This document shows positions 23,473-39,265 of a DNA stretch of 64,000 nt, in pieces; positions within the stretch are counted from its first letter, which is position 1, and each line of letters opens with the position of its first letter. The stretch comes from Streptomyces sp. HPF1205 (GTDB lineage Bacteria; Actinomycetota; Actinomycetes; Streptomycetales; Streptomycetaceae), in the NCBI RefSeq assembly GCF_020400825.1, contig NZ_JAINVH010000018.1, positions 62,001 through 126,000 of the forward strand. The letters are read 5' to 3'. Both the position numbers and the translations under genes were made by a program. The notes beneath the pieces are model-generated. The model was not told the DNA's origin and searched no databases. It saw nothing but the letters and a program-made list of their open reading frames with translations.

Positions 23473-24457
23473 GGTGATGACCGGTGCCGTGGTCGGTGCC
23501 GGTGCCGGTGCCGGTGCCGGTGTCGGTGCCGGAGCCGGAGCCGTGACCTGCGCCGTGATCGTGATCGTGGCCGGGGCCGTGGCCGTGCGCGTGCCCCGGG
23601 TCGTCCGGGTGGTGGTGCGGCTGCTGCGGCATGCCCACCCGCTCCTCGAAGCCCGGCAGCTTCACCCGGTACACGCAGCTGTCGCAGTTCATCCGCAGAT
23701 CGCCCGTCAGGGTCTCGCGGTACCGCTCGCGCACCAGCGCGGCCAGTTCCGGCTCGGCCCCCAGTACGTCCGCGCACCGCACGTCCACGCCTTGGTGCGA
23801 GTCCGCCCACTCGCGTGCCTGGTCCCGTACCCGGTCCGGCAGCACACCGGGGAACAGGAAGTACGGCAGGACCACGACGGGTCCCCGGCCTTCGGCGCCC
23901 AGCCGCCGGCAGCGCTCCAGGCCGGCCGGGACCGACGGCTCGGCAAGCGACACGAACGCGGTCTCCACGCCCGCGTAGCCGCGGCCCTCCCACAGCAGCC
24001 GGGCCACCTTGAAGACCTCGGCGTTGGCGTCCGGGTCGGTCGAGCCGCGGCCCACCAGCAGCACCGTGGCGTCCGCCCGGTCCGTGCCCGCCAGGGCCTC
24101 GTCGATCCGCCGCTCCAGGACGGTCAGCAGGTGCGGATGCGGGCCGAGCGGGCGGCCGTACGCGTAGGACGTGCCCGGGTGGCGGCGCTCCTCGCGGGCC
24201 AGCGCCGCCGGGATGTCGCCCTTGGCGTGCCCGGCGGACACCAGCACCAGCGGCACCGCGGCGAACCGCGTCACCCCCTGGGCCACCAGGGACGCCACCG
24301 ACTCCGCCAGCGGCGGCGCGGACAGCTCGATGAAACCGCCGCCCACCGGCAGGGCCGGGTCGGCGGCGCGCAGGCTCTCGACGAAGGCGCGGAAGGCCGC
24401 GGCGCCGGCCTCGTCGCGGGTGCCGTGGCCGACGAGCAGGAGTGCGGGCGGGTTCAC
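23456..24457 (-). CDS. cbiX: Sirohydrochlorin/cobalt chelatase CbiX with His-rich tail
   Basis: 333 residues. Two CbiX half-domains (about 1-125 and 130-245): LLVGHGTRDEAG with the metal-binding His, VPLVLVSAGHAKGDIP, and VLLVGRGSTDPD. Next is the C-terminal MNCDSCVYRVKLPG motif, suggestive of an Fe-S or metal site. About 55 further residues are dominated by His, Gly, Asp and Thr (HHHPDDPGHAHGHGPGHDHD, then GTGT repeats). The GTG start overlaps the cobH stop (GTGA). CobN in the same operon is a second, late chelatase, so this one may handle sirohaem/early insertion or metal supply. Confidence 0.88.
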   Translation of the reverse strand: MNPPALLLVGHGTRDEAGAAAFRAFVESLRAADPALPVGGGFIELSAPPLAESVASLVAQGVTRFAAVPLVLVSAGHAKGDIPAALAREERRHPGTSYAYGRPLGPHPHLLTVLERRIDEALAGTDRADATVLLVGRGSTDPDANAEVFKVARLLWEGRGYAGVETAFVSLAEPSVPAGLERCRRLGAEGRGPVVVLPYFLFPGVLPDRVRDQAREWADSHQGVDVRCADVLGAEPELAALVRERYRETLTGDLRMNCDSCVYRVKLPGFEERVGMPQQPHHHPDDPGHAHGHGPGHDHDHGAGHGSGSGTDTGTGTGTGTDHGTGHHHAHTH

Positions 24458-25044
24458 AGGTCGTTCTCCTCAAGGGGGTACGCGGTGTACACGAGCGCGT
24501 TGAGAGCGGCGGCGGCCACCGCGGAGCCGCCCTTCTCCGAGATGTTGCTGACCGCGGGCAGGCCCGACGCCCGCAGGCGCGCCTTGCTCTCCGCGGCGCC
24601 CACGAAGCCGACCGGCATGCCGATGACCAGGGCGGGCGCCGCGTCCAGCGCGACGAGTTCCTCCAGCGCGGTCGGGGCGCAGCCCACCACCCAGACCGCG
24701 CCCGGCCCCACCTGCTCGTACGCCAGCCGCACCGCGTGGGCGCTGCGGGTCAGGCCCGGGCCGGGGGCCGCGTCGGCGAGCCGGCACACGGCCCGCCGCG
24801 CGGTGATCCCGGCCGCGACCATCTCCACGTCGGCGACGACCGGGGCCCCACTGTGCAGCGCCTCGTGCCCGCGCCGCAGCGCGGCCTCTTCGGTGACCAG
24901 GTCGGCGGCGTAGTCCAGGTCGGCGCTCGCGTGGACCACCCGCTCCACGACCGCGCGGTGCAGCGGCGGGAAGGCGGAGGTGTCCAGGCGGGAGCGCAGG
25001 ATGCGGAAGGACTCCCGCTCGATGGGATGGACCGTGCGCCTCAC
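24454..25044 (-). CDS. cobH: Precorrin-8X methylmutase CobH
   Basis: 196 residues from GTG 25044, which overlaps the stop of the cbiG-cobJ gene. It catalyses the 1,5-methyl shift giving hydrogenobyrinate. The catalytic histidine is in VVERVVHASADLDYA (His38). Other signatures are VVADVEMVAAGI, VGCAPTALEELV, and GMPVGFVGAAESK near the end. The longer open frame upstream is the shadow of cbiG-cobJ. Length and motifs are normal for the family. Confidence 0.92.
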   Translation of the reverse strand: MRRTVHPIERESFRILRSRLDTSAFPPLHRAVVERVVHASADLDYAADLVTEEAALRRGHEALHSGAPVVADVEMVAAGITARRAVCRLADAAPGPGLTRSAHAVRLAYEQVGPGAVWVVGCAPTALEELVALDAAPALVIGMPVGFVGAAESKARLRASGLPAVSNISEKGGSAVAAAALNALVYTAYPLEENDL

Positions 25045-26945
25045 TCGGCCTCCTCGGCGAGGTTGTGCTGCCAGCGGTAGCCGCGGGGGGTGACCATGCG
25101 GCCGGCGACCGTACGGGTCGCGGTGTTGCCGACCGTCACCACGGTCACCATGTCCACGGTGTCCGGATCGAGTCCGGCGAGGGTAGTGAGCACGGTGCGC
25201 TCGCCGGGGCGGGACGCGGCGCGCACCACGCCCACCGGCGTGTCCGGCGCGCGGTGCCCGGCCAGGATCGACAGGGCCTTCGGCAACTGCCAGTCCCGGC
25301 CGCGGCTGCGCGGGTTGTAGAACGTCACGACCAGGTCGGACTCGGCGGCCGCGCGCACCCTGCGCTCGATCACCGGCCACGGGGTGTGCAGGTCGCTGAG
25401 GCTGATCGACACGTGGTCGTGGCCCAGCGGCGCCCCGAGCAGCGCGGCCGCCGCCAGCGCCGCGGTCACCCCGGGCACGCCCACCACGTCGATGTCGTCC
25501 GCGGCCTCGGCCAGCGCGGGGGAGGCCATCGCGTACACCCCGGCGTCGCCGCTGCCGATCAGCGCCACCGCGTGGCCCGCGCGCGCCTCGGCCACGGCGG
25601 TACGGGCCCGCTCCTCCTCGGCGCCGAGCCCCGAGGCCAGCACCCGTGTCCCCGGGCGGAGCAGGTCCTCGATCTGCCGCACGTACTGGTCGAGCCCCAC
25701 CACGACCGACGCGGCCCGCAGTTCCCGCTCCGCCCTGGGCGTCATCAGGTCCCTGGCCCCCGGTCCGAGCCCCACCACCGCCAGGCGCCCGCGCGGCGGA
25801 CGGCGCGCGACGGCCACCGTGGCCATCGCCGACTTGCGCTTCTCCACGACGAGTTCGCCGCCGCGCGCGGCGAGCAGCGCGGCCGCCTCCGCCACCGAGG
25901 GGGTGCCGAGCGCCCGCAGCGGGGCGTCCGAGGGGTTCGGCACGGCCACCCGCGCGAGCGCGGCGGCCCCGAACGTCACGAGCGGCACCCCCAGCCGCTC
26001 GGCCGCCGCCACGATGCCCGGTTCGTCCCTCTTGGCGTCCGCGGTGGCCAGCGCGCTCACGCTCCTGACGGACAGCGAGGCGCCCGCCAGGCTCTCGCGC
26101 ACCAGCCCGAGCACTTCCGCGGCGCCGGCCCCGCGGCTCGCCCCCACCCCGACCACGAGTGACGGCGGCCGTACGAACACGGTGCGCGCGGCGCGCGGCT
26201 TCACGGTGTCCGTCACCCACACGAGCGGCTCGGCGTCTTCCTGTGGGCGGCCCCCGTCGCCACCGGCGGCCGTCCCGCCCGCGGTGGGGCCCGGGGACCG
26301 GCCGTCCCCGGACGCTCCCGGTCCTTGGTGGGGCCGGGCTGCCGCGGCGGTCGCGGGCGCGAAGCGTTCGGCACCGCCGGTCCACGTCGTCCCGCTTCCC
26401 GCCGTCGCGGCGGGGCCGGGGGGAGCGGCGTCCCCCCGCGTCCCCGGCCGGTGGGCGATCACGGGGAGGGCGGGGAGAGGCCAGATCGCGTCCTCGCGCA
26501 GGTGGACGGGGGAGCCGTCCAGGAGGGCACGGGTGACCGCGGCCACCGCGCCTTCCACCGGGTAGGGCAGCGTGTCGAGCGCGGGAGTCCCGGAGGAGTC
26601 CGTCGCCGTCGTGACGACCGGCGCGCAGCCGAGGACGTCCGCGACGGCCCCCGCCAGGGAGTTCGCGCCGCCCGCGTGGCCGCCGAGCAGCGCGACGGCG
26701 AAGGTGTGGGCCTCGTCCACGGTCACGACGCCCGGGTCGGTGTCCTTGCCCGCCAGGAGAGGCGCGAGGAGCCGTACGGCCGCGCCCGTCGCCAGGAAGA
26801 GGACGAGCCGGTCGCACTCGGCGAAGGCGCGCGGGACGGCCTCGCCGAGGGGGCCGTCGTAGCGCCGGGTCGGTTCGGGGAGGGCGGCGGCGAGCCGTTC
26901 GCAGCCCCGGCGGCCGGCGGCCGTGGCCCAGAGCAGGCCGATCAC
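25041..26945 (-). CDS. cobJ: CbiG-CobJ fusion: cobalamin protein CbiG / precorrin-3B C17-methyltransferase
   Basis: 634 residues from GTG 26945, which overlaps the cobL stop and has AAGGAA upstream. N-terminal CbiG region (about 1-130: VIGLLWATAAGRRG, LVLFLATGAAVRLLAPLL, VVTVDEAHTFAVALLGGHAG), a Pro/Gly-rich spacer, the CbiG C-terminal domain (about 265-385: VVGVGASRGAGAAEVL, KRDEPGIVAAAERLG), then a CobJ SAM methyltransferase (about 400-634: AVVGLGPGARDLMTP, IGSGDAGVYAMA, VTFYNPRSRGRDWQL). CbiG is known from the anaerobic ring contraction, yet the operon has the aerobic-type CobN, so this is a mixed set common in actinobacteria. Confidence 0.9.
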   Translation of the reverse strand: MIGLLWATAAGRRGCERLAAALPEPTRRYDGPLGEAVPRAFAECDRLVLFLATGAAVRLLAPLLAGKDTDPGVVTVDEAHTFAVALLGGHAGGANSLAGAVADVLGCAPVVTTATDSSGTPALDTLPYPVEGAVAAVTRALLDGSPVHLREDAIWPLPALPVIAHRPGTRGDAAPPGPAATAGSGTTWTGGAERFAPATAAAARPHQGPGASGDGRSPGPTAGGTAAGGDGGRPQEDAEPLVWVTDTVKPRAARTVFVRPPSLVVGVGASRGAGAAEVLGLVRESLAGASLSVRSVSALATADAKRDEPGIVAAAERLGVPLVTFGAAALARVAVPNPSDAPLRALGTPSVAEAAALLAARGGELVVEKRKSAMATVAVARRPPRGRLAVVGLGPGARDLMTPRAERELRAASVVVGLDQYVRQIEDLLRPGTRVLASGLGAEEERARTAVAEARAGHAVALIGSGDAGVYAMASPALAEAADDIDVVGVPGVTAALAAAALLGAPLGHDHVSISLSDLHTPWPVIERRVRAAAESDLVVTFYNPRSRGRDWQLPKALSILAGHRAPDTPVGVVRAASRPGERTVLTTLAGLDPDTVDMVTVVTVGNTATRTVAGRMVTPRGYRWQHNLAEEAE

Positions 26946-28204
26946 AGGGGAGTTCCTTTCGACGCGAAGGCGCGGGGACGGGTGCCCCACAGGACGAAGA
27001 CGGGATTGGCGGCGGCAAGCCGCGTGACGTCACCGGGCAGCGGGGCGAGCCGGGAGGACTGCAGCAGGGTGCCGTCGGTGACCAGCCCCGCCGACGCGAG
27101 GGCGAGCCGCACCTCCCGCACCCGGTCCACCGCGGCCAGCGTGACCACGACCCGGCGCCGCACCACTCGCGCGCAGTGCGCCACGATCGCGCCGAGCGCC
27201 GCGCCCCCGCCGCCGACGAACACCGCGTCGGGCTCGGCCAGCGGGGCCAGCGCGCCGGGCGCGGTCCCGCACACCACCTGGACGTCGACCCCGTGCGCGG
27301 CCGCGTTCGCGCGGACCCGGTCCGCGCCCTCGGGGTCGCGTTCGACCGCGACCGCGGCGGCGCCCAGCCGCGCGCACTCCACGGCCACCGACCCCGAACC
27401 GGCCCCGACGTCCCACACCAGTTCGCCCGGCCGCGGGCCGAGCCGGGCCAGCGCCAGCGCCCGCACCTCGTACTTCGTGACCATCGAGTCGCGGTGCTCG
27501 AAGGCGTCCTCCGGCAGCGCCCACTGCGCCGGCGGCCCCGCGGGCCCGGCGAGCACCCGGGCGGCCGGCGCGGTCCACGACTCCTGCGGCCCGCCGAGGC
27601 TGAGCACCACCGACACCCCGTCACCCCACGCCCGGCCCGCCGCCTCGGCGGGGGAGACCCGCACCACGGACTCGCCCTCGCCCCCCAGCCCGGTGGCGAC
27701 GAAAAGGGTGCGGGCGACGCCGGTACGCGCCAGCGCCCCGCCGAGTTCGGCCGGTCCCGCGCCCGGGCCGGTCAGCACGGCCACCTTGCGATGCGCCGCG
27801 CAGACGTTGACCGCGGTCCGCGCGTCCCGCCCGTGCGCGCTCACCACGACGGCGTCGTCCCAGCCCAGCCCGACCCGGGCGAAGGCCGCGGCGACCGACG
27901 GCACCGACGGGCGCACGTCCAGGGCCGCCGCGCCGAACCGCGCGCCCAGCGCCCGTACGATCCCGAAGAACCCGGGGTCGCCCGAGGCGAGCACCGCCAC
28001 CCGGCGGCCGGCGGCCACGTGCTCGGCGACGGCGTCGAGGGCGGGCGCCAGCGGTCCGAGCACCACCTGGCGCACACCCGGCGGAAGGCCGGCCGCCGCC
28101 AGGTGCCGGGCGGCGCCCACCACGAGGTCGGCTCCGGCGACGGGCGGCGGGGCGCCGCCCGGCACCGTCCCCGTACCGATCACGGTGATCGAACGGTCAG
28201 CCAC
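26942..28204 (-). CDS. cobL: Precorrin-6Y C5,15-methyltransferase (decarboxylating) CobL
   Basis: 420 residues, GTG 28204. N-terminal tetrapyrrole methylase (about 1-205: ITVIGTGTVPGG, VLASGDPGFFGIVRAL), then a C-terminal CbiT-type methyltransferase (about 225-400: DSMVTKYEVRALALARL, VWDVGAGSGSVAVECARL). It thus carries both CbiE and CbiT activities, adding methyls at C5 and C15 with decarboxylation. Overlaps cobM by eight bases at its start and cbiG-cobJ by four at its end. Confidence 0.93.
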   Translation of the reverse strand: MADRSITVIGTGTVPGGAPPPVAGADLVVGAARHLAAAGLPPGVRQVVLGPLAPALDAVAEHVAAGRRVAVLASGDPGFFGIVRALGARFGAAALDVRPSVPSVAAAFARVGLGWDDAVVVSAHGRDARTAVNVCAAHRKVAVLTGPGAGPAELGGALARTGVARTLFVATGLGGEGESVVRVSPAEAAGRAWGDGVSVVLSLGGPQESWTAPAARVLAGPAGPPAQWALPEDAFEHRDSMVTKYEVRALALARLGPRPGELVWDVGAGSGSVAVECARLGAAAVAVERDPEGADRVRANAAAHGVDVQVVCGTAPGALAPLAEPDAVFVGGGGAALGAIVAHCARVVRRRVVVTLAAVDRVREVRLALASAGLVTDGTLLQSSRLAPLPGDVTRLAAANPVFVLWGTRPRAFASKGTPL

Positions 28205-31200: not shown

Positions 31201-31793
31201 CACTCGATGCCCCTCTGGCCCTTCTGACCGGCGTCCATGGGGTGCTTGACCTTCGTCATGTCGGTGACGAGGTCGGCGGCGTCGACCAGTTCCCGCGGCG
31301 CCTCGCGGCCGGTGATCACGACGTGCTGCGTGCCGGGCCGCTCCCGCAGGACGGCCACGACCTCGGCGGTGTCGACCCAGCCCCAGCGCATGGGGTACGC
31401 GAACTCGTCCAGGACGTACAGCCGGTAGGTCTCGGCGGCCAGGTCCCGCCTGACCTGCGCCCAGCCCTCGCGGGCCGCCTCCTCGTTGCTGCCCGGCGTG
31501 CGCTGCACCCACGACCAGCCCTCGCCCATCTTGTGCCAGGCCACCGTGCCGCCCTCGCCGGAGTCGCCCAGCACGCGCAGCGCCCGCTCCTCGCCGACCC
31601 GCCACTTCGCCGACTTGACGAACTGGAACACCCCGACCGGCCACCCCTGGTTCCAGGCGCGCAGCGCCAGGCCGAACGCGGCGGTCGACTTGCCCTTGCC
31701 GGCGCCCGTGTGCACGATCGTCAGCGGCCGGTTGCGGCGCTGACGGGTGGTCAGCCCGTCGTCCGGTACCGCGCTCGGCTGTCCCTGCGGCAT
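31197..31793 (-). CDS. cobO: Cob(I)yrinate a,c-diamide adenosyltransferase CobO
   Basis: 198 residues. P-loop GAGKGKSTAAFG at about 30-41, then LRAWNQGWPVGVFQFVKS, VLDEFAYPMRWGWV and VVITGREAPREL, all typical of CobO/BtuR adenosyltransferases. It attaches the 5'-deoxyadenosyl ligand to cobalt(I). Its ATG 31793 overlaps the chelatase stop by one base (TGATG). Confidence 0.95.
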   Translation of the reverse strand: MPQGQPSAVPDDGLTTRQRRNRPLTIVHTGAGKGKSTAAFGLALRAWNQGWPVGVFQFVKSAKWRVGEERALRVLGDSGEGGTVAWHKMGEGWSWVQRTPGSNEEAAREGWAQVRRDLAAETYRLYVLDEFAYPMRWGWVDTAEVVAVLRERPGTQHVVITGREAPRELVDAADLVTDMTKVKHPMDAGQKGQRGIEW

Positions 31794-33886
31794 CAGGCTG
31801 CCCTCCGTACGTCCTTCACCAGCGCGGACACCGTGTCCGCGCGCAATTCGCCGAGCGTGACCGCGATCCCGCCCAGGTCCCGGGCGAGCGCGCCGGCCAG
31901 ACCCAGCCGGACCGGGCCCGACTCGCAGTCCACGACCACCGAGGCGACGCCGGCCGCGCCCAGCAGGCGGGCGGCGCGGGCCGCCAGCGCGACCGGCTCG
32001 GGGCCGCCGGTGGCCCGGCCGTCGGTGACCACCACCAGCAGCGGGCGCCGCGCCGGGTCCCGCAGCCGCTCCACCCGCAGCGCCTCATGGGCGGTCAGCA
32101 GCCCGGCGGCCAGGGGCGTGCGGCCCCCGGTGGGCAGCTTCTCCAGCCGCGCGGCGCCCGCCTCCACCGACGACGTCGGCGGCAGCGCCAACTCGGCCCC
32201 GGCGCCCCGGAACGTGATCAGGCCGACTTTGTCCCGCCGCTGATAGGCGTCCAGCAGCAGGGACAGCACCGCGCCCTTGACCGCGCCCATCCGCTGCCGG
32301 GCCGCCATGGAACCGGAGGCGTCCACCACGAACAGCACGAGGTTGGACTCCTTGCCCTCCCTGACCGCCTGCCGCAGGTCGCCGCCGCGCAGCACCAGTC
32401 CGGGACCGCGGCGCCCGCGCGCCATCTGGTACGGCGCCGCCGCCCGTACCGTCGCCGCGAGGTGCAGCGCGGTCAGCCGGTCGCCGCCGCGCGGCCGCCG
32501 GGACCCGGTGACGTGGCCCGACACCGTCCTGGCGCGCGAGCGGCGCCCCGCCGTGCCCTCGCCGAGGCCCGGCACGGTCAGCGGCCGGGTGCGGTACGGG
32601 TCCGCGGCCGCGGCGGGCCGCTGCCCGGCGGAGGCGGACCCGCGCGAGGCGTCCCGGCTCCCCTCCGGGCCGGCCGTACGGTCGCCACGAGGGGGCTGCC
32701 CGCCGTCCCCGGGGCTCTCGGGGCCGCCTCCTCCCTCAAGGCCGACAGGGCCCGCGTCGCGGCCTTCGCCGGGGCCGCCGCCGGGGCCGCCTCCCTCGGG
32801 GCCGCCGTCCGGGCCGGGGTCGTCCGGGCCAGGGTCGTCCGGGCCGGGGTCGGGGTCGTCGTCGGGGTCCGTGCCCCGCTCCCGCCGCAGCGTCTCGTCC
32901 AGCTTGTCCTCGTCGAGGCCGGGCGCGTCGAAGGGGTTGCGGCGGCGCCGGTGGGGGAGGGCCAGCAGGGCCGCCCGCCGTACGTCCTCGGCGAGGACGA
33001 CCGTACGTCCCGCCCACGCGGCCAGCGCGGCCGCCGCGCGGGCCGTCACGATGTCGGCGCGCATGCCGTCCACCTCGAAGGCGGCGCAGACCGCGGCGAT
33101 CTGCCGCAGCGCCCCGTCGCCCAGCCGCACCTCGGGCAGCAGCGACCGGGCCGCCGCGATCCGCCCGCGCAGCGCCTGCTCCTCGTCCGCCCAGCGCGCC
33201 GCGAACGCCGCGGGGTCGGCGTCGTACGCCAGGCGCCGCCGGACGACCTCCACACGCTGCTCGGGCTCTCGCGGGGCGGTCACCTCGACGGTCAATCCGA
33301 AGCGGTCCAGCAATTGAGGTCGCAGTTCGCCTTCTTCGGGATTCATGGTCCCGACGAGCAGGAACCGCGCCGCATGCCGCACGGAGACGCCCTCCCGCTC
33401 GACGTGACTGGCGCCCATGGCCGCGGCGTCCAACAGGACGTCGACCAAGTGGTCGTGCAAGAGGTTGACTTCGTCCACGTAGAGGATGCCGCGGTGGGCA
33501 TGGGCCAGCAGGCCCGGTTCGAAGGACTTCACGCCCTCCGTCAGCGCCCGCTCGATGTCCAGCGCGCCGACGAGCCGGTCCTCCGAGGTGCCGACGGGCA
33601 GCTCCACGAGCTTCGTGGGGCGGGACTCGCCCTGGACCGCGGCCCCGTGCGGCCCATCAGGACAGGCAGGATCGGGCGAGGCGGGGTCGCAACCGAAACG
33701 GCACCCCGGAACCACGCTGATCTCGGGGAGCAGCGCGCTCAGGGCCCGCACGGCGGTGCTCTTGGCGGTCCCCTTCTCGCCGCGCACGAGCACGCCGCCG
33801 ACCGCCGGCGAGACCGCGTTCAGCAGCAGGGCGAGCCGCAGACTGTCCTGGCCGACGATCGCGGTGAGCGGGTAGGGGGTACTCAC
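31793..33886 (-). CDS. Magnesium-chelatase-like cobaltochelatase AAA+/VWA subunit (ChlI-ChlD type)
   Basis: 697 residues from GTG 33886. AAA+ ATPase (about 1-340): Walker A VRGEKGTAKSTAVRAL, Walker B GILYVDEVNLL, sensor region LVGTMNPEEGELRPQLLDRF. An acidic Pro/Gly/Asp linker (about 350-450) follows. A VWA domain (about 520-690) has the MIDAS motif VVDASGSMAARQRM and later TDGRATGG. In actinobacteria this fused protein replaces CobS and CobT as the motor for CobN. It is separated from cobN by 172 bases, the only non-overlapping junction in the operon; AAGGAG sits about 10 bases before the GTG. Confidence 0.9.
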   Translation of the reverse strand: MSTPYPLTAIVGQDSLRLALLLNAVSPAVGGVLVRGEKGTAKSTAVRALSALLPEISVVPGCRFGCDPASPDPACPDGPHGAAVQGESRPTKLVELPVGTSEDRLVGALDIERALTEGVKSFEPGLLAHAHRGILYVDEVNLLHDHLVDVLLDAAAMGASHVEREGVSVRHAARFLLVGTMNPEEGELRPQLLDRFGLTVEVTAPREPEQRVEVVRRRLAYDADPAAFAARWADEEQALRGRIAAARSLLPEVRLGDGALRQIAAVCAAFEVDGMRADIVTARAAAALAAWAGRTVVLAEDVRRAALLALPHRRRRNPFDAPGLDEDKLDETLRRERGTDPDDDPDPGPDDPGPDDPGPDGGPEGGGPGGGPGEGRDAGPVGLEGGGGPESPGDGGQPPRGDRTAGPEGSRDASRGSASAGQRPAAAADPYRTRPLTVPGLGEGTAGRRSRARTVSGHVTGSRRPRGGDRLTALHLAATVRAAAPYQMARGRRGPGLVLRGGDLRQAVREGKESNLVLFVVDASGSMAARQRMGAVKGAVLSLLLDAYQRRDKVGLITFRGAGAELALPPTSSVEAGAARLEKLPTGGRTPLAAGLLTAHEALRVERLRDPARRPLLVVVTDGRATGGPEPVALAARAARLLGAAGVASVVVDCESGPVRLGLAGALARDLGGIAVTLGELRADTVSALVKDVRRAA

Positions 33887-33899
33887 GAGGTGATCACTC

Positions 33900-34050
33900 C
33901 TTCGAGTGGCGATTGCGCCGGTGTTCCGATGAGGGAGGCAGCGCGTGCGATGCTCAGGATCTGATCCCCGCTTGCGTGGGGGTGGTCCGAATGTCGACAC
34001 GCGGGAACACGAGCTCGCCGACTACTCCCCGCACGCGCGGGGGTGCCACA
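33900..34050 (+). CRISPR. Degenerate type I-E-like CRISPR relic in the cobN/chelatase gap
   Basis: Repeat 1 at 33961-33989 and repeat 2 at 34022-34050, 29 bp each, share 20 of 29 bases, including TCCCCGC and GGGGGTG. The repeat period is exactly 61 bp, leaving a 32-bp spacer (33990-34021), the normal type I-E geometry. Each repeat folds into the expected CCCCGC/GCGGGG hairpin. A third, poor match at 33900-33928 (14 of 29) keeps the 61-bp phase and the end GGTGTTCCG, but overlaps the chelatase ribosome site. The crRNA sense would be the plus strand, antisense to cob. No cas genes in the window. Confidence 0.6.
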
Positions 34051-34058
34051 CGGGGACC

Positions 34059-37747
<3,689 letters not shown>

Positions 37748-37751
<4 letters not shown>

Positions 37752-39265
37752 GGCGCCCCCGGCGCGACGAAGGGAAGGCCGGCGGGAGCGCCGTCCTCGA
37801 TGAGCCGCAGCAGGGCGGCGGTGTCCATGTGCTCCTCGACGAGGGCGGCCAGCCGGTCGAGCCGGGCCTCGCGCAGGCCGGCGAAGCAGGTGTCGGGCGC
37901 GGGCACGAACCGGCGGCCGGCCGCCGCCGCGACCTCGGCCAGGAAGCGGCGGCGGAAGCCGTCGCTCTCCAGCGAGCCGTGCCAGTGGGTGCCCAGGACG
38001 GCCCCGACCCGGCAGCCGCCGAGGAACGGCTCGCCGCCGCGCACGTCGGCCACGCCGTGGTGGATCTCGTAACCGGTGACCGGCTCCCCGTAGTACGTGC
38101 CCTCCGGGCGGGCGAGGGTCTTGGCGGCCGCGAACCGCACCCGCACCGGCAGCAGGCCGAGACCCGGCACCGTGCCGCGGCGCGACTCGACGTCGTCCTC
38201 GATGACCTCGCCGAGCATCTGGAAGCCGCCGCAGATGCCCAGCACCGGGCGGCCCTCGGCCGCGCGGCGGCACACGGCGTCGGCCAGGCCGCGCTCGCGC
38301 AGCCACTCCAGCGCCCCGACCGTGCCGCGCGTGCCCGGCAGCACCACGAGGTCGGCGTCCGCCAGTTCCTGCGGACGGTCCACGAACCGCACGAGGACGC
38401 CCGGTTCGGCGGCGAGCGCGTCCAGGTCGGTGAAGTTCGACATCAGCGGCACGGCGGCGACGGCCACCCGCAGCACGTCCTCGCCGTGCGGCGGCGTGGG
38501 CGCCGACTCACGGGCCGCCCCGCCCCACCCCCGCCCCGGCGGGGGCACGCCCAGCCCGTCCTCCTCGTCGATGCCCAGACCCTCCGCGTACGGCAGGACG
38601 CCCAGGGTGGGGCGGCCGGTGAGCCGCCGCAGCATCTCGAGGCCGGGCTCCAGCAGGGCGCGGTCGCCGCGGAACTTGTTCACCACGTAGCCCGCGACCA
38701 GCCGCTGGTCCTCCGCGCTCAGCAGCGCGGTCGTACCGAAGAAGCTCGCGAACACCCCGCCGCGGTCGATGTCGCCGACGACGAGGACGGGGATCCGCGC
38801 GGCGCGGGCGACGGCCATGTTGACGATGTCGGTGCGGCGCAGGTTGATCTCCGCGGGGCTGCCGGCGCCCTCGCAGACCACCACGTCGTACGCGGCGGCC
38901 AGTTCCTCCAGGCAGCCGGTCACCGTGGCCAGCAGTTCGGCCTGCCGGCCGCCGTGGTAGCCGCGCGCGCTCATCTCGCCCACCGGCCTGCCCATCACCA
39001 CGACCTGGCTGGTGCGGTCGCCGCCGGGCTTGAGCAGCACCGGGTTCATCAGCGCCGAGGGTTCGGCCCGGGCGGCCATCGCCTGCATGGCCTGCGCGCG
39101 CCCGATCTCCGCGCCCTCCCGGGTCACGAACGAGTTCAGGCTCATGTTCTGGCCCTTGAACGGGGCGACCCGCACCCCGCGTCCGGCCAGGAACCGGCAG
39201 ATCCCGGCGACCAGGACGCTCTTGCCCGCGTCGCTCGACGTGCCGGCGACGAGCAGACCCCTCAT
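37748..39265 (-). CDS. cobQ: Cobyric acid synthase CobQ
   Basis: 505 residues. N-terminal dethiobiotin-synthetase-like ATPase ([48 protein letters not shown]). C-terminal class I amidotransferase with the nucleophile in [12 protein letters not shown] and the His in VTGYEIHHG. It amidates side chains b, d, e and g to give adenosylcobyrate. ATG 39265 overlaps the cobD stop by four bases. Confidence 0.96.

Follow-up and report, generated by a model that had tools for sequence, protein, structure and literature searches.

A one-spacer type I-E CRISPR cassette at the cobN-chelatase junction of Streptomyces matches its flanking genes and lies beside a recoded target

Organization of the cobN-chelatase junction

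The window, by which we mean the whole stretch of 64,000 nucleotides of Streptomyces sp. HPF1205 that was analysed, contains a cob operon in which cobN is followed by a gene for a putative cobaltochelatase. The cobN stop codon at 34059 and the GTG start codon of the chelatase gene at 33886 bound a gap of 172 bp, and this gap is filled by a cassette of two type I-E-form repeats, R1 and R2, which have a period of exactly 61 bp and enclose a single 32-bp spacer (Table 1). A preliminary description of this DNA had reported the two 29-bp repeats, their period, the spacer, the gap and the antisense orientation of the repeats relative to cob, all of which were verified in the sequence with their coordinates. 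It had also noted a third, weak repeat match that overlaps a ribosome site. This match, at 33900-33928, was rejected as a repeat, as alignment columns from 16 genomes are conserved there only over the chelatase ribosome-binding site.

The same alignment showed by information content a near-invariant A at column 73 and an invariant T at column 77, ahead of R1. These positions could form a -10 box, in which case transcription would begin at R1. The junction is organised alike in the other carriers of the cassette, in a form of 181 bp when measured from the cobN stop to a conserved YPF codon. Elsewhere in the window, positions 24454-27624 (-) hold an open frame of 1056 amino acids with a precorrin-8X methylmutase domain only in the last 190 residues.

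Table 1. Features of the cassette and of the genes on either side, in window coordinates
Feature	Position	Strand	Remarks
Cassette filling the cobN-chelatase junction, 172 bp	33887..34058	+	Repeat sense antisense to cob operon
R1, type I-E-form repeat, 29 bp	33961..33989	+	CTGATCCCCGCTTGCGTGGGGGTGGTCCG; conserved 8-nt 5' handle GTGGTCCG
Spacer, 32 nt	33990..34021	+	In-frame translation NVDTREHELAD, a conserved CobN segment
R2, type I-E-form repeat, 29 bp	34022..34050	+	CTACTCCCCGCACGCGCGGGGGTGCCACA; conserved over first 21 nt only, to the Cas6e cut
Chelatase Shine-Dalgarno AAGGAG, provided by the cassette	33897..33902	-	From sequence; carriers share a conserved GATCACTCCTTCGRGTG block
Possible -10 element, pattern [CG]ANNNT	33949..33954	+	6 bp before R1; putative
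Escaped cognate protospacer within cobN	34549..34580	-	AATGTGGACTCTCGAGAACATGACATTGTGGA; 10 mismatches vs spacer
PAM position of the cobN protospacer	34581..34583	-	AAA here; AAG in 78/80 cassette-free genomes
cobN, cobaltochelatase subunit CobN, target gene here	34059..38306	-	TIGR02257, 1163.7 bits
Chelatase gene, putative cobaltochelatase, BchI/BchD-like	31793..33886	-	TIGR02442, 817 bits

CRISPR origin and distribution of the cassette

The CRISPR origin proposed in the preliminary description was borne out by alignment to the repeats of the host, as R2 aligns over 30 bp with CRISPR repeats on contig C100 at 93% identity (E 1.6e-5). The host has genuine type I-E arrays with a 61-bp period and a complete type I-E operon (cas3e, cas8e, cas11e, cas7e, cas5e, cas6e and cas1e), with a second Cas8e locus on C100. 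The cassette is on contig C89 and the cas loci are on C67 and C100. Several I-E arrays with two repeat types were observed (C100:22.8-24 kb, 43.8-44.3 kb and 54.6-54.9 kb; C67:81.8-97.3 kb), together with two Cas8e lineages in this one genome. A mini-array at C100:43878 was also inspected, and none of its spacers that were examined convincingly matched the DNA on either side.

The most informative test was one that the preliminary description had proposed, in which this junction is compared among relatives. A first comparison found the R1-spacer-R2 cassette at the identical place and in the identical orientation in 16 genomes including this one, and the count rose to 26 different carriers, this genome included, in Streptomyces and Actinacidiphila. 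Chance was ruled out by the recurrence of both repeats at this position in another 25 genomes. Among compared cob loci the genes at this junction overlap in about half (gap of 10 or less in 52/106). A search pattern that required one particular cobN end gave only two carriers, and we therefore used a leader-plus-R1 pattern to search 392 Streptomyces genomes and 394 genomes of the family. This was found in 11 and 8 of them respectively, and every match whose neighbours were read lay upstream of the chelatase gene.

All 26 carriers have the 29/32/29 architecture with period 61 of a type I-E repeat and spacer, and every full cassette has exactly one spacer. Reduced forms were also seen, in which one repeat (L156, L161) or only the start (L148/L183) is kept. 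The cassettes of L243 and L247 are flanked by a cobQ-like gene on one side and the chelatase gene on the other, and their spacers target the chelatase gene. Locus L083 (genome G029) has a single I-E-like hairpin at the 3' end of cobN, antisense as in the cassette but lacking the other cassette parts, which is possibly an old remnant. Six Actinacidiphila loci (L062, L063, L072, L081, L076 and L071) have unrelated dispersed hairpin repeats of a Streptomyces type at the cobN-chelatase junction, and genome G004 has two cobN genes, one ordinary and one more distant.

Conservation within the cassette follows the outline of one crRNA. In R1 the hairpin and the 8-nt handle carry 1.43 and 1.38 bits per position, the exact 32-nt spacer carries 0.35, and R2 carries 1.50 over nucleotides 1-21, which form the hairpin, versus 0.70 over nucleotides 22-29 past the Cas6e cut. 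Pairing in the hairpin stem is kept in 98-99% of cells of the carrier alignment, with covariation too weak to establish RNA selection by itself. These boundaries, and the occurrence of the unit in 26 genomes at one site with always a single 32-nt spacer, do not support the earlier reading of a relic or stranded array end. The cassette resembles an ordinary type I-E array in its 29-bp hairpin repeat, 32-bp spacer, 61-bp period and AAN PAM at targets. It differs in always having one spacer, in its fixed place in the cob operon, in the origin of its spacers from cob genes and in the decayed end of R2; it does not carry several mobile-element spacers growing at a leader end.

The spacers match the flanking genes

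The preliminary description had suggested a search for the spacer in phage and plasmid sequences. Matches of this spacer to phage sequences were at chance level only (E at least 0.2) and matches to plasmids followed the repeats rather than the spacer, and a phage or plasmid source was rejected. Its partner lies in the cob operon itself. Across carriers the spacers, when translated, give peptides that are conserved in the products of the flanking genes, including segments of CobN and, for the chelatase, AVSPAVGGVL, GTAKSTAVRA, LLHDHLV and others. When compared with cobN and chelatase consensus sequences built from cassette-free genomes, 22/23 spacers scored 24-31/32; the exception, that of L139, mapped weakly (21/32) to a known site. 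Shuffled spacers had a mean score of 19.3/32 with 0/4600 reaching 25, and 0.5% of 1500 32-mers from the host reached 25.

Targets lie within the coding regions of the genes adjoining the cassette, on both strands, and the chelatase is the target gene in about half of carriers. An AAN PAM usually stands beside the target, and in cassette-free genomes the PAM position has AAG or AAC at most sites, with a conserved AAC at some. The PAM of the type I-E system of S. avermitilis is AAG (PMC4762764), and the sites with a conserved AAC therefore count against the crRNA reading developed below. Antisense action on cob mRNA was rejected, since at least roughly half of the spacers are in the sense of the mRNA.

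The preliminary description had also suggested that the hairpins may be reused as a processing site, so that cobN is uncoupled from the chelatase gene. If RNA were processed or terminated there, the spacer would be meaningless. Stable hairpins do occupy the intergenic stretch (z = -2.3 for a 90-nt fold), but we give this idea almost no credence, as it does not predict the exact 32-nt length or the conservation of the handle and leaves the matches of the spacers to cobN and the chelatase gene unexplained; the statistics of these matches already refute it.

Different cob spacers occur in the same cassette across carriers. L237 and L246 have spacers from the same site with about 10 differences, all of them synonymous, which may have arisen when priming led to a new uptake of the spacer, or by drift restricted to the positions that are conserved among targets. 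Plain inheritance of spacers fails to explain such synonymous differences between species, and we count them against the reading of the cassette as a crRNA allele that is developed below.

The carrier's own target is a poor match and is locally recoded

The spacer of this genome matches its own cobN at 22/32. Against 80 cassette-free genomes the median match was 26/32 and the maximum 28, and none was as low as 22. This deficit of self-match was general, with a Fisher p of 2.6e-7 for 22 carriers and of 2.3e-5 once these were grouped into 12 sites. The best fit of a guide that is inherited or regulatory would be expected in its own genome; the opposite was seen, and the copy that stands apart is the carrier's own. 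L266, L267 and L269, three carriers that came to light when the hypothesis was already in place, scored 22, 19 and 22 against themselves versus medians of 26, 24 and 28 (p = 0.002).

To control for fast or distant lineages, the divergence of each carrier's target window was set against that of the full set of windows from this gene in its own genome. The carrier's own target was hyper-diverged, falling in the top 5% (below 0.05) in 13/22 carriers (Fisher 3e-11). When carriers were scored at the sites of other carriers, 18% were below 0.05 (Mann-Whitney p 3.5e-4 vs own sites). Carriers were thus mildly more diverged than expected where other cassettes have their targets, for example at chelatase codons 31-41 of L169, and this may represent the recoding scars of earlier spacers.

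In this genome the target is in the top 0.7% of cobN windows for local divergence, and 6/10 of its wobble bases are A or T vs 11% in the gene. Mismatches to own targets are distributed 33/19/111 over the three codon positions (111/163 at third positions), and in L145 spacer and target disagree at each wobble base and nowhere else. The target codons of L267 include AGA, AGG, CAT, TAT and GGA. A general enrichment of A/T-ending codons at targets was not significant in most carriers, and recoding was therefore assessed as local divergence. The PAM is also changed in carriers, to AAA for AAG as here, or to AAT, CGG or GCA. No local recoding was found in L130, L175, L146, L239, L169 and L246, which counts against the proposal made below. 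Among these L130, L175 and L239 nevertheless have a changed PAM, whereas L146, L169 and L246 keep AAG and an intact seed and have no detectable Cas8e. As judged from the sequences, the carrier allele is predicted to be resistant to its own guide.

These data bear on autoregulation, in which a crRNA-Cascade complex would bind its own cobN or chelatase gene by partial complementarity and repress the operon, as in CreA/CreR. In CreTA systems one or two degenerate repeats outside arrays give rise to a crRNA-like guide that is partly complementary to a neighbouring gene (PMC9458426), and the cassette is similar in both its degenerate non-array repeats and its guide; the AAG and seed retained in L169, L146 and L246 would also fit. 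However, the cassette has no toxin, its junction has no room for a toxin gene, and it is not beside cas genes. Its targets are coding sequence of a metabolic operon, in both orientations, and its self-target has escaped instead of being kept: the self-match is among the worst of all genomes, and most carriers, among them all nine with Cas8e, show a change in PAM or seed. We therefore regard autoregulation as very improbable.

A better fit to the alleles of other species than to self would also be expected of a barrier to gene transfer that involves no drive, in which the spacers would protect the cell from cob DNA that arrives by conjugation from related strains or on plasmids, as spacers from the chromosomes of other species do in Haloferax. 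The presence of cobN on some actinobacterial megaplasmids is in keeping with this. Ordinary immunity, however, requires neither placement in the targeted operon nor a one-spacer format, the targets are restricted to the genes adjoining the cassette, and phages are essentially without cobN (2/50,697 records). A barrier of this kind is decidedly unlikely.

Joint exchange of cassette and target between species

On a tree of the cobN-chelatase region the carriers form one large group with additional scattered cases, requiring 10 changes vs 22.5 expected by shuffling. Two carriers, L238 and L156, were placed among cassette-free relatives. From the cassette through the chelatase target, 20/20 informative sites in L238 and 22/23 in L156 are of the type of another carrier, L147. 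Both sequences revert to that of the nearest cassette-free relative some six codons beyond the target. Over the first 50 codons L238 and L156 are 95% identical to L147 vs 84-85% to their relatives. Donor-type sites through the target followed by reversion indicate that cassette and recoded target were exchanged jointly in a short tract. L156 has since lost the spacer and retained the recoded target.

As with a homing endonuclease gene, occupied and empty alleles exist at one site, the carrier allele appears resistant, and flanking markers were converted together with the element in both recipients. Unlike a homing endonuclease gene, the cassette encodes no nuclease and would rely on the Cascade-Cas3 of its host, and its resistance would come from recoding and not from disruption of the site.

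Cas8e in carriers

Cas8e (PF09481) was detected in 9/23 carriers tested, a count from which diverged minimal I-E variants may have escaped. It was not enriched among Streptomyces carriers (6/20 vs 13/31 non-carriers), and this is the main weakness of a reading in which a crRNA attacks other alleles. In all nine Cas8e-positive carriers the own site has a PAM that is changed or other than AAG, a mismatch in the seed, or both. Together with the lack of a detectable Cas8e in the three mapped carriers that retain AAG and seed, this pattern of escape agrees with selection by a nuclease, in a number of carriers too small for significance.

The many carriers without Cas8e would be accounted for if the cassette were an autoimmune scar, in which a self cob spacer was taken up by accident, the cell survived by mutation of the target, and the unit was then carried with little function. 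This would also account for self-derived spacers and escaped self-targets. It does not readily explain one site, one spacer and crRNA-shaped conservation across 26 genomes, the several different cob spacers in the same cassette, or the joint movement of cassette and recoded target into other species, and the dense recoding exceeds the single mutation that would suffice. We consider a scar conceivable but unlikely.

A proposed crRNA allele that spares its own operon

Together, these results suggest that the cassette is probably a crRNA gene whose product attacks non-self alleles of the surrounding operon while sparing the linked recoded allele, by allele exclusion or homing. A more specific form of this, that it is a natural RNA-guided homing or 'cleave and rescue' allele, is put forward tentatively: here a one-spacer crRNA gene would borrow type I-E Cascade-Cas3, destroy cassette-free cobN or chelatase alleles and spread by recombination together with its synonymously recoded target.

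We infer the following steps. The cassette would act as a minimal crRNA gene, consisting of a putative promoter and R1-spacer-R2, whose transcript would be processed and loaded into type I-E Cascade. The guide would recognise the flanking gene, cobN or chelatase, in the non-self form that is common elsewhere, and the linked own copy would escape through its changed PAM, seed and wobble bases. With Cas3, an incoming or resident cassette-free cob allele would be cut, and could then be replaced through recombination with the linked, recoded, cassette-bearing allele. The benefit would be that foreign cob alleles are excluded and that the unit spreads by homing, as a natural analogue of 'cleave and rescue'.

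Synthetic cleave-and-rescue and homing drives combine a guide against the common allele with a linked recoded copy (cf. PMC4117217). The cassette has the same two components; it differs in being natural, bacterial, of type I-E and in a metabolic gene, and its cleavage and drive are putative. A precedent for the proposed recombination step is provided by the type I-B system of Haloferax, where CRISPR targeting in matings biases recombination toward the targeting strain in a Cas3-dependent manner (PMC12814878). The guides there are likewise directed against housekeeping genes of mating partners (PMC12814878), but their spacers are in ordinary arrays and not beside a recoded copy of the target. 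Our literature search, which covered work outside subscription access, returned no report of CRISPR in a cob operon or of self-sparing guides.

If this proposal is correct, CRISPR guides are used naturally for allele warfare among relatives, at an operon of core metabolism and with a carrier gene that is recoded in the manner of engineered gene drives. CRISPR would then be tied to homologous exchange and to the boundaries between species in Streptomyces, and the target, PAM, escape codons and transfer tract of each carrier would form a comparative system ready for tests of drive behaviour.

Hairpins of related form were also seen elsewhere in the host genome. Lone I-E-like hairpins lie between genes at C56:157944, C56:131968 and C120:64028, one of them upstream of a clpC-like gene.
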